DNA of 33,670 bases from a virus: the IMG/VR virus record IMGVR_UViG_3300044673_000585, positions 1 through 33,670 of that record. One strand, written 5' to 3'. Positions 23,321-33,670 of this stretch are shown here, one piece after another. Each line of letters starts with the position of its first letter. Within the stretch, counting starts at the first letter, position 1. The notes below the pieces were generated by a model. The model made no database searches, had not been told where the DNA came from, and was given only the letters and a program-made list of their open reading frames with translations. Position numbers and translations under genes: made by a program.

Positions 23321-23674
23321 ATGCCTGAATACGTATCACAAGTGTTTCTGGAGGTAAACGGCCAGGAGATCAGCGACTTCAGTAGCGTCACTGAAAAGGA
23401 AGTCGAGATCAGCAAGGAAGTGAAGCTGATGAACAAGACGGGCTTTGCTTCCGCCACCCCGCGCTTTGGCCTCGAGGTGGAGTATGTGGTGCCAAAGGAT
23501 GCGCCGGAATTCGATTTCTCATCCGTGAAGAACGGGACGCTGACCATCGACAAGCAGAACGGGGTGCGGGAGACATACACCGGCGTCTATTGTCTCAAGA
23601 TCGGCACCACCAAATATGACGGCGAAAAAGAAGCGACCAGACAGATTGATTTCGGCGCGACCGGGAGGGTGTGA
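23321..23674 (+). CDS. Tail tube protein (position of Mu gpM)
   Basis: A 117-aa protein right after the sheath. It has alternating strands (SQVFLEVNGQEISDFSSVTE, KEVKLMNKTGFASATPRFGLEVEYVVP) as expected of a tail-tube beta-sandwich, ending with a polar KEATRQIDFGATG. Size matches Mu gpM (118 aa). It is followed by the chaperone gene, as in other contractile phages. The call rests on position, size and general pattern. The stop overlaps the next start (TGATG). Confidence 0.82.
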   Translation: MPEYVSQVFLEVNGQEISDFSSVTEKEVEISKEVKLMNKTGFASATPRFGLEVEYVVPKDAPEFDFSSVKNGTLTIDKQNGVRETYTGVYCLKIGTTKYDGEKEATRQIDFGATGRV

Positions 23675-24033
23675 TGCTGGCGGAAAAAGGGACATTGCCA
23701 TTCGGCATTGAAAGGGAAGGGGCGGGGCATCGCAAGTATACCCTGCGGGAGCAACTGGTGTGCGACGCAATCGAGGTGTTCGACTCCACCGATGCGGAGA
23801 GGGCTGGTAAGAGCGATAGCTACTTCGGGGTGTGCGTCATGGCCCAGAGGCTATCGATTGAAGGCATCCCGCAGGAAGAGATCACCACGGCCCTGCTGAT
23901 GTCCATGCGCCAGACCGACTTCAACGAGCTTGCCGCTGCGGACAAGCGGCTGGAAGAGAAGAGGCGCACGTTTCGAGGCGCGGCTGAAGCCGCAGCGAAA
24001 GCTCCAGATAGCGCTGTTGAAGTTGGGGCTTAG
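23674..24033 (+). CDS. Tail assembly chaperone, short form (Mu gp41-like)
   Basis: A 119-aa protein from ATG 23674. It is the upstream member of the G/GT-type tail-assembly chaperone pair that coats the tape measure before tube assembly. Features are TLPFGIEREGAGHRKYTLRE at the start, helical CVMAQRLSIEGIPQEEI and a charged C-terminus. The second frame reads through from about 23981, see the frameshift entry. It ends at TAG 24031-24033 when no shift occurs. Confidence 0.82.
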   Translation: MLAEKGTLPFGIEREGAGHRKYTLREQLVCDAIEVFDSTDAERAGKSDSYFGVCVMAQRLSIEGIPQEEITTALLMSMRQTDFNELAAADKRLEEKRRTFRGAAEAAAKAPDSAVEVGA

Positions 24034-24163
24034 CTACCAGGATACTCTGACGATGCCGGAGGGAGAGGTCATGGCCTTGCTGCTTGCCCATGAAGAGATT
24101 GTCTCCCCGCAGAAGAAAAAGACCTATGTCGTAAAGAGGAAGAAACCGAGCAATGGGCGATAA
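23981..24163 (+). CDS. Frameshifted C-terminal extension of the tail chaperone (gp41-42 type)
   Basis: The other frame is open to TAA 24161-24163 and reads KLQIALLKLGLSYQDTLT, MPEGEVMALLLAHEEI, like the T-part of chaperone pairs. It has no good start of its own, only TTG 23930 or a late ATG 24053. GCG at 23980-23982 can slip back two bases onto GCG 23978-23980, giving a 163-aa fusion; this is the -2 shift reported for Mu. Plus-one slips at AAAG (23998) or GGGG (24025) are alternatives. The fused product would bridge chaperone and tape measure. Confidence 0.7.
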   Translation, partial: RLKPQRKLQIALLKLGLSYQDTLTMPEGEVMALLLAHEEIVSPQKKKTYVVKRKKPSNGR

Positions 24164-25961
24164 CATGAAACTGTTCCTGGAGCTGGTCGCAAATGCGTCC
24201 GGCTTCAAGACGGAAATGAACAGCTCGCATAGCGCGGTGACACGGTTTGCCCGTGGCGCGAAGGGCGAACTGGATGCCTTGAAGGGCGCGTTCGGTTCCG
24301 TCCATGGCCAACTAGCTACCCTCGGGATCTCTGTCGGGGTTGTCAAGACCATGATGGACTCCGCCCGGCTCGACAAGTCGCTGACCCAGATCGGCCAGAC
24401 CGCCGGAGAAGGGAGCGGCAAGGTGTCGGCGCTGCGGGCGGATCTCTTTGCCCTGGCCAGAGAGTCAGGTCAGGGGGTCGAGGATCTCAAGGACGGCTTC
24501 AACTCTCTGGTTCAGTCCGGGCTCAACATGAACGAGTCCAGGGAGACCTTGAAGGGCATCAATACTGCCATGGCCGTAACCGGAGCCAGCGCCCAAACCC
24601 TGTCTTCGGGGCTCACGGTGGCGGCAACCGCTTACAATTTTGATTTGTCTAAGCCTGGCATGGCGCTGGAGATGCTCGACAAGATGACCGTGGCTGGTCG
24701 CCTTGGTAATGCCGAATTGGAGAACCTCTCCGGGATCTTTGCCAGGGTCGGGGTTAACTCGGCCAGCGCGGGCATGGGTTTTGAAAAGACCCTCGCCTTC
24801 ATTGAGGGATTGTCCATGGTGGAACGCCAGCCGGAGCGCTTGGCCACCCTGGCAGACAGCACCATGCGGGTATTCACCAATCTCAAATACATGGCCGATG
24901 CGCAGAAAGGCACCGGCGTCAAGTTTTTCGATGCGAAGGGTGCCCGGCGTGACGCCCTGGACGTGCTGGGTGACATCAAGAAAAAATATGACACCCTGAC
25001 CACGGACGCCCAGCGGGCGGTGTTCATTCAGAAGGCTTTCGGTAAAGCCGATCTTGATACCGTCAAAGGCATCAAGACCCTACTCCAAGGAGATTCCTTG
25101 AACAAGGTGCGGTCGTTCTCCGACAGCATCGAAAAGGCCGGGGGCACCCTGAAAAGAGATTTCTCCGAGGCGACTCGAAACCTAATCGACCAGACCGGCA
25201 TGCTGAAGAATGACCTGCGTGAGGCTGCGGACGGGTTTGTCAAACCGATCAACGAGACCCTGGGTCAATTCATCCAGTTTGTCAGAGACAAAAAAGAAAA
25301 TGGCGGGCTGAATCTGGATGGGAAAAAGATGATAGTTGGTGGCCTGGCCGGAACCTTAGGAACCATGCTCGCCGCAAGATATGGTTCCAAAGGTATTGGC
25401 GCTGTAGCCGAGAGAATGCTCAAGGGCGGCGGTTCCGTTGGTCTTGGGGTAGCTGAAGGCAAGGTTCTGGAGGCTGCCACTGGGGTAAGTCCGGTATTCG
25501 TCGTCAACTGGCCCACTGGTTTTGGTGGTGGTGTACTTCCGCCTGGTATTCCGCAGGGTGTTCCGACTGCGGCTTCGGCTGCTATCGGTGCCTCATGGGC
25601 CGTTCCTTTGGCCATCCCGATTGCGACCGCAGTTGCCGCAGAGACCTCCATGGCGATCGGCAAGGCAATAACCAATGCCCAGATCGCATCGTCGTCGCAA
25701 GAGACCCTACGGACTCTCCGGGATAGACACATGGTCATGGGCGGCGGCTCCGATAGCTATCAAGTGAGAGCGATTGACTCAGTGCTCAATCGTGGATACG
25801 AGGGCGGTGGCGGCCCAATGAAAAACGACATCAACCTGAGCATCGCCATCGACGGCAACAACCGGGTGGTAACGCAAACCAGCGATCCGAATACCCACAC
25901 CAAAATCAATACCATGCGTCGGGGCAGCTTTGGTCCGGCGGCTATGGCTTCGTCCCATTAA
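24153..25961 (+). CDS. Tail tape measure protein (Mu gp42-like)
   Basis: A 602-aa tape measure that sets tail length and spans the tube. The N-terminus (MKLFLELVANASGFKTEMN) and the TP901-type core (LRADLFALARESGQGVEDL, NLSGIFARVGVNSASAGMG, LADSTMRVF) are recognisable. Residues 395-510 are glycine-rich and hydrophobic, including a likely membrane-inserting region (GASWAVPLAIPIATAVAAE). Mu's protein is 654 aa, so the tail should be of similar length. An alternative ATG at 24165 is possible. Confidence 0.93.
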   Translation: MGDNMKLFLELVANASGFKTEMNSSHSAVTRFARGAKGELDALKGAFGSVHGQLATLGISVGVVKTMMDSARLDKSLTQIGQTAGEGSGKVSALRADLFALARESGQGVEDLKDGFNSLVQSGLNMNESRETLKGINTAMAVTGASAQTLSSGLTVAATAYNFDLSKPGMALEMLDKMTVAGRLGNAELENLSGIFARVGVNSASAGMGFEKTLAFIEGLSMVERQPERLATLADSTMRVFTNLKYMADAQKGTGVKFFDAKGARRDALDVLGDIKKKYDTLTTDAQRAVFIQKAFGKADLDTVKGIKTLLQGDSLNKVRSFSDSIEKAGGTLKRDFSEATRNLIDQTGMLKNDLREAADGFVKPINETLGQFIQFVRDKKENGGLNLDGKKMIVGGLAGTLGTMLAARYGSKGIGAVAERMLKGGGSVGLGVAEGKVLEAATGVSPVFVVNWPTGFGGGVLPPGIPQGVPTAASAAIGASWAVPLAIPIATAVAAETSMAIGKAITNAQIASSSQETLRTLRDRHMVMGGGSDSYQVRAIDSVLNRGYEGGGGPMKNDINLSIAIDGNNRVVTQTSDPNTHTKINTMRRGSFGPAAMASSH

Positions 25962-32905: not shown

Positions 32906-33670
32906 ATGGGCTCATTTATACCGTATTTTGGAGGCAAGACCAGACTCGCAAAACGCATCATCGAGAAGATCCCGGCGCATGGCTGCTATGTAGAGGTGTT
33001 TGCCGGTAGCGCCACGGTGCTCTTCACCAAGGAGCCGTCCAAGGCCGAGGTGTTGAACGACTTCGACCAAGAGCTGGTCACGTTGTACCGGGTGATTAAG
33101 CACCACCCTTTGGAATTCCATCGCCAGTTCGAGTTGAGCCTGGTGAGCCGCGACGAATTCGCCAGAATGCTGCAAGTGGTTCCGGAAACCCTCACCGACA
33201 TACAGCGTGCGGTTCGCTACTTCTACCTGCAAAAGAATAGCTTCGGTGGCAAGGTCACTGGCCAGACCTTCGGCACCTCCACCTCCGGTCCACCACGGCT
33301 CAACCTGTTCAACCTGGAGCGCACCATCCATGACGCTTGGCTTCGCCTGTCCCAGGTGACCATCGAGCGGCTGGACTTCCGAAAGCTGATCCCAAAATAC
33401 GACCGGCCGCATACCTTTTACTTCCTCGACCCACCTTACTGGCAGATCCCCGGCTATCGGCACGACTTTGAGGCACAGGACTTTCACGATCTGGCCAACA
33501 CCCTCTCCGGCATCCAGGGCCGCTTCCTGATGACCATTAACGACACGCCCGAGGTGCGGGAGATATTCAAGGAGTTCAAGATCGAGGAGGTGCGGCTTCG
33601 GTATTCGATGAGCCGCAATGGTAAGGCCAGGAGCAAAGAGCACACCGAGTTGCTGGTGGCAAATTACTGA
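32906..33670 (+). CDS. dam: DNA adenine methylase (D12 class)
   Basis: A 254-aa N6-adenine methyltransferase of the D12/Dam class. FGGKTRLA near the start is the AdoMet-site loop; EVFAGSATVLF at 30-40 is motif I; DPPYW at 175-179 is catalytic motif IV. A target-recognition segment lies between (about 60-165). An AAGGA precedes ATG 32906 and the TGA is the final codon of the window, so the gene is complete. It probably protects phage DNA from host restriction, taking the place of Mu mom. The target sequence is not predictable here. Confidence 0.93.
   Translation: MGSFIPYFGGKTRLAKRIIEKIPAHGCYVEVFAGSATVLFTKEPSKAEVLNDFDQELVTLYRVIKHHPLEFHRQFELSLVSRDEFARMLQVVPETLTDIQRAVRYFYLQKNSFGGKVTGQTFGTSTSGPPRLNLFNLERTIHDAWLRLSQVTIERLDFRKLIPKYDRPHTFYFLDPPYWQIPGYRHDFEAQDFHDLANTLSGIQGRFLMTINDTPEVREIFKEFKIEEVRLRYSMSRNGKARSKEHTELLVANY

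Follow-up and report, generated by a model that had tools for sequence, protein, structure and literature searches.

The tail assembly chaperones of long-tailed double-stranded DNA phages are known for a frameshift of the lambda gpG/gpGT type (Xu, Hendrix and Duda 2004, as cited in PMC5009743), usually a -1 shift at an X_XXY_YYZ heptamer. In phage Mu, gp41 carries a -2 shift, annotated as verified, at CGG_GGG_CGA; its efficiency is ~2.2% (PMC3498833). Shifts of +1 are known from bacterial prfB and from Listeria phage tsh and cps (PMC5009743, PMC10885494), with slips at CUU or CCC beside a stop codon (prfB, tsh) or at CCC before a sense codon (cps). In influenza A PA-X and in plant amalgaviruses, the +1 motif is UUU_CGN (PMC3498833, PMC5052127). 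For the PA-X site, UCC_UUU_CGU, mass spectrometry fixed the position and the +1 direction of the shift, and re-pairing from UUU_C to UUC was deduced; tRNA-Phe (anticodon GAA) has been argued to read both UUU and UUC, with UUC preferred. At this site CGN is preferred in the A site, UCC in the E site is stimulatory, and the efficiency is ~1% (PMC3498833).

Here we describe a phage locus that resembles the lambda pair in lying between the tube and tape measure genes and in combining a chaperone with a shifted C-terminal extension, and whose close homologues use the -1 form, but for which the predicted shift is +1 at UUU_CGA. It would share +1 P-site slippage on bacterial ribosomes with prfB and the Listeria genes, but would slip at UUU while CGA occupies the A site. 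With PA-X and the amalgaviruses it has in common the slip codon, the C that must follow and the preference for CGN, although those are eukaryotic viruses using eukaryotic ribosomes and the genes are unrelated.

Results

Overlapping frames between the tube and tape measure genes

The window (the whole stretch of 33,670 bases analysed, record G000) comes from a Mu-like transposable phage whose genes include those for a Mu-type transposase, a portal, a major head protein and a contractile tail. The record is incomplete at its right end, past which runs the gene at 32906-33670, encoding a DNA methyltransferase (phrog_56, E 9.2e-80). Two overlapping ORFs, arranged as a gpG/gpGT-like pair, occupy the interval between the tail tube and tape measure genes (Table 1). 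The start codon of ORF1, ATG at 23674, overlaps the stop of the tube gene (TGATG) and is preceded by an SD sequence, GGGAGGG, at 23663-23669; ORF1 ends at TAG 24031-24033. The second frame, offset by +1 (equivalently -2) relative to ORF1, is open from 23900 to 24160 and closes with TAA at 24161-24163. An HMM of the ORF1 family recovers Mu gp41 (E 1.9e-15), and ORF1, which also matches phrog_508, is a homologue of known chaperones with an inferred chaperone function.

Table 1. Features of the chaperone locus in the window
Feature	Coordinates	Strand	Evidence
Tail tube protein gene, upstream neighbour	23321..23674	+	phrog_185 E 2.6e-12
ORF1, tail assembly chaperone (Mu gp41 / lambda gpG-like), 119 aa	23674..24033	+	phrog_508 E 2.8e-18
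Both-frames-open overlap of ORF1 and second frame	23900..24033	+	
Candidate +1 slip site TTT_CGA	23971..23976	+	TTT in 70/70 +1-class loci
+1-frame extension (gpT-like domain)	23975..24163	+	HMM homologues in 118 loci, +1 or -1 relative to ORF1
Tape measure protein gene, downstream neighbour	24153..25961	+	phrog_973 E 4e-30; PF10145 E 2.7e-24

Homologous pairs fall into two frame classes

Direct searches failed because ORF1 is too diverged: neither tblastn with ORF1 against phage records nor an ORF1 scan of viral contigs gave usable relatives, and tblastn with two other +1-type ORF1s and blastn with one +1 locus found no matches among phage records. Identity of ORF1 homologues to the window is mostly only 30-50%. 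The tail sheath therefore served as anchor in place of ORF1, providing 80 viral loci and 77 loci in bacterial genomes, and HMMs of ORF1 and ORF2 were made from the first homologues and then iterated. Both ORFs were located by HMM in 117 loci, where the second ORF lies in the +1 frame in 70, in the -1 frame in 47 and in the same frame in none. Thus the two domains are joined across a frame break in every placed locus, but in two directions. Sampling by sheath similarity yields related loci, so the p-values given below are illustrative only, and the strength of the evidence lies in invariance across diverged sequences. The break between the frames is genuine and is maintained by selection.

Stops and conservation place the shift

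We set 53 sequences in register with TTT as codon 0. Stops in the +1 frame reach no further than codon -2, while 0-frame stops begin at codon +5; pooled, they confine the shift to codons -1 to +4, provided that all sequences share one site. Amino-acid conservation switches sharply in the same region: before TTT the mean BLOSUM score is 0.85 in frame 0 and -0.38 in +1, and after TTT it is 1.38 in +1 and -0.04 in frame 0. The +1 frame is stop-free over 28 codons in the 53 sequences, and the second ORF is conserved and without a start of its own.

An earlier sequence-only reading of this DNA had taken the second frame to be coding and displaced by -2/+1, which these results bear out; its proposal of a programmed frameshift in the tail chaperone pair, with +1 as one of two options, is strongly supported by conservation among homologues. 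It had, however, placed the slip within 23978-24033 and judged it no obvious copy of a standard slippery heptamer, whereas the conserved TTT_CGA sits just 5' of that interval and matches a known site, UUU_CGN.

A conserved TTT_CGA site in the +1 class

In the window, the predicted P-site TTT (23971-23973) is ORF1 codon 100, CGA (23974-23976) would occupy the A site, and the new frame would run from 23975. Each of the 70 +1 loci carries an in-frame TTT in a single invariant column, and the next base is C in 69; the exception, L108, reads TTT_TCA at the same column, and its TTT can also re-pair. In-frame TTTC lies in the overlap of 69/70 +1-class loci but of only 1/47 -1-class loci (Fisher p ~3e-30, uncorrected for relatedness). 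Removal of near-duplicates left 54 TTTC sites, in which TTT is present in 54/54 by construction; no +1 locus was dropped for carrying TTC, since TTT is found in all 70. Against a background in which TTT makes up 44% of Phe codons, the chance of TTT over TTC has log10 P ~ -23, calculated from per-locus codon usage with sites taken as independent.

The codon after TTT is CGA in 38 of the 54 sites, CGC in 13, and CGT, CAA and CCC in one each, so that TTT_CGN is found at 52/54 with ORF2 in +1. CGG never follows TTT, although among the Arg codons of these phages CGG makes up 30% and CGA 5.3%. This favouring of CGA and CGC sets the phage sites apart from those of PA-X and the amalgaviruses. The E site often holds a Ser or Thr codon (TCG 9, ACG 8, TCC 7 and ACC 6 of 54; each 1-5% in sheath genes), and UCC_UUU_CG is present at 7/54 sites. 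The distance from TTT to the ORF2 domain is constant in 52/54 and one codon off in the other two. Since TTT followed by C is exactly what re-pairing to TTC requires, a +1 slip is favoured; a -2 re-pairing of tRNA-Phe is unsupported, because the codon before TTT varies widely.

The +1 site has no clear stimulator, as no conserved downstream RNA structure was found at the +1 sites (the consensus fold is empty; mean downstream z -0.4) and an SD-like sequence 10-12 nt upstream is present in only about a third of them, a modest enrichment.

The -1 class and Mu-type -2 sites

All 47 loci of the -1 class carry a classical heptamer, which is A_AAA_AAG in 40, A_AAA_AAA in three (L076, L093, L103) and G_GGA_AAR in four (L116, L120, L147, L158). 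Because the same ORF1/ORF2 pair uses textbook heptamers in these phages, fusion by shifting is the rule of the family. In the window ORF2 lies in +1, and the overlap holds no A-rich heptamer. Users of G_GGA_AAR, which in L116, L120 and L147 stands ahead of the ORF1 stop, include some Desulfovibrionaceae-type and other -1-class members. One deltaproteobacterial contig, PHAR01000007.1, carries two related Mu-like prophages, of which L116 is of the -1 class and L094 yielded no chaperone ORF to the HMM.

The Mu site CGG_GGG_CGA is kept at the ends of gp41-type ORFs in Mu, D108, B23, MuM16-2, Kp4866-3 and Vibrio 1.028.O (loci L085, L087, L209, L210, L215 and L216), and in every one of them the second ORF lies in the -2/+1 frame. 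The four phages besides Mu and D108 represent Alteromonadaceae, Shewanella, Klebsiella and Vibrio. A -2 signal that recurs in this way is unusual.

Alternative explanations for the second frame

The sequence-only reading favoured GCGCG (23978-23982) as the site of a Mu-like -2 slip. Such a slip would reach the same net frame by re-pairing between identical Ala codons, GCGCG does fall within codons -1 to +4, and there is precedent in the verified annotation of the Mu homologue, whose site recurs in D108 and four other phages. GCGCG is indeed present in the window, but it is found at this place in only 5/54 homologues. An identical-codon -2 slip of any kind is available in the overlap in 21/54 and is not conserved; CGG_GGG_CGA is absent from the window, and TTT is invariant instead. 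We therefore regard a -2 slip at GCGCG as very unlikely, and the junction expected in the protein is TFEAR rather than the TFRGAR of the formerly predicted ...TFRGA-RLKPQR. The second frame might instead be a separate gene that needs no frameshift, expressed either by translational coupling or from a start codon within the frame, such as TTG 23930 or ATG 24050. TTG 23930 is in the +1 frame of the window, and a second small ORF is entered in the annotation of some related records. Yet 30/54 homologues have no ATG, GTG or TTG before the conserved +1-frame domain, 42/54 have no ATG there, and a start plus SD-like sequence occurs in only 5/54. Independent initiation, which had been set against the frameshift from the outset, is thus unsupported, and since it leaves the invariant TTTC and the fixed spacing unexplained we hold it highly improbable.

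Two further +1 slips had been suggested close to the end of ORF1, at AAAG (23998-24001) and GGGG (24025-24028). Both motifs exist, are in frame and permit +1 re-pairing, and 27/54 homologues have a GGGG at some point of the overlap. They correspond, however, to codons +9 and +18, beyond the 0-frame stops at codons +5 to +8 where homologous ORF1s already end, and AAAG appears anywhere in the overlap in only 19/54; a slip at either is extremely unlikely. A lone metagenomic record could also hold an indel, or the gene could have decayed. We practically dismiss both: 70 loci, drawn from many projects and including isolate genomes, repeat this frame relation and motif, and the +1 frame has kept free of stops as described above.

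Evolution and distribution

An ORF1 tree was built with the slip site itself left out and rooted on Mu and D108; it rests on 101 columns, which is few. The +1 loci group in a single clade (SH-aLRT 99) and the -1 loci are paraphyletic, which is most simply read as +1 having been gained once. For loci L002-L161, frameshift class needs 8 changes on the sheath tree (fast method) versus one on the chaperone tree, which suggests that the two chaperone ORFs are exchanged together between phages. Hosts of the +1 class include Desulfobulbus, Geobacter, Syntrophorhabdus, Nitrospirota and Gallionella-type genomes, and those of the -1 class are mostly Beta- and Gammaproteobacteria.

Discussion

From these comparisons we consider it very likely that expression of the pair involves a programmed +1 shift, in which tRNA-Phe slips in the P site from UUU to UUC while the A site holds CGA. 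Most ribosomes would finish at the ORF1 stop and yield the 119-aa chaperone, while a minority would shift when UUU is in the P site and the A site presents CGA, a rare codon. The tRNA-Phe (anticodon GAA) would move from UUU onto the overlapping UUC, GAG would then enter the A site, and translation would run on for 62 codons to 24160, giving a predicted 162-aa fusion (...EEKRRT-F-EARLKPQRK...). If the two products act as lambda gpG and gpGT do, the short form would coat the tape measure protein and the fusion would recruit tube subunits.

CGA may act as a slow codon, but the preference for it could partly reflect the Glu that it sets in the +1 frame. We considered whether CGA is poorly decoded through inosine alone. 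This fails in Desulfobulbus elongatus, a +1-clade genome with single tRNA-Arg genes for UCG, ACG and CCG; as tRNA-Arg(UCG) is present besides ACG, CGA need not be poorly decoded there.

The Mu -2 site resembles the window's in having a homologous ORF1, the same net frame and CGA in the A site, and differs in its P-site codon and in the direction of slippage. The occurrence of CGA in the A site of both types suggests a shared principle of P-site slippage. Taken together, we lean towards a reading in which UUU_CGN evolved independently on bacterial ribosomes, convergent with eukaryotic RNA viruses, and in which one chaperone family has swapped between -1 (A_AAA_AAG), -2 (GGG_CGA) and +1 (UUU_CGA) shifts, the latter two both slipping in the P site while CGA waits.

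Frameshifting in tail chaperones has long been known. We found no report of UUU_CGN use in a phage or bacterium in open papers, and since our coverage of the literature is incomplete, it is with moderate confidence that we describe a +1 shift at UUU_CGN as apparently new to phages.

No general +1 motif is known, according to the authors of PRFect (PMC10885494), and +1 sites at sense codons are hard to recognise. A phage family in which UUU_CGN is conserved offers a bacterial system, workable in common laboratory strains, for a motif that until now has been studied in viruses of eukaryotes. Recognising it would also improve annotation, as the extension is entered as a separate hypothetical ORF or left unannotated in several related phage records. 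In this family the direction of the shift has been exchanged naturally while the same two protein domains were kept, so that what the phages require would be the fusion at some ratio and not a particular mechanism for making it.
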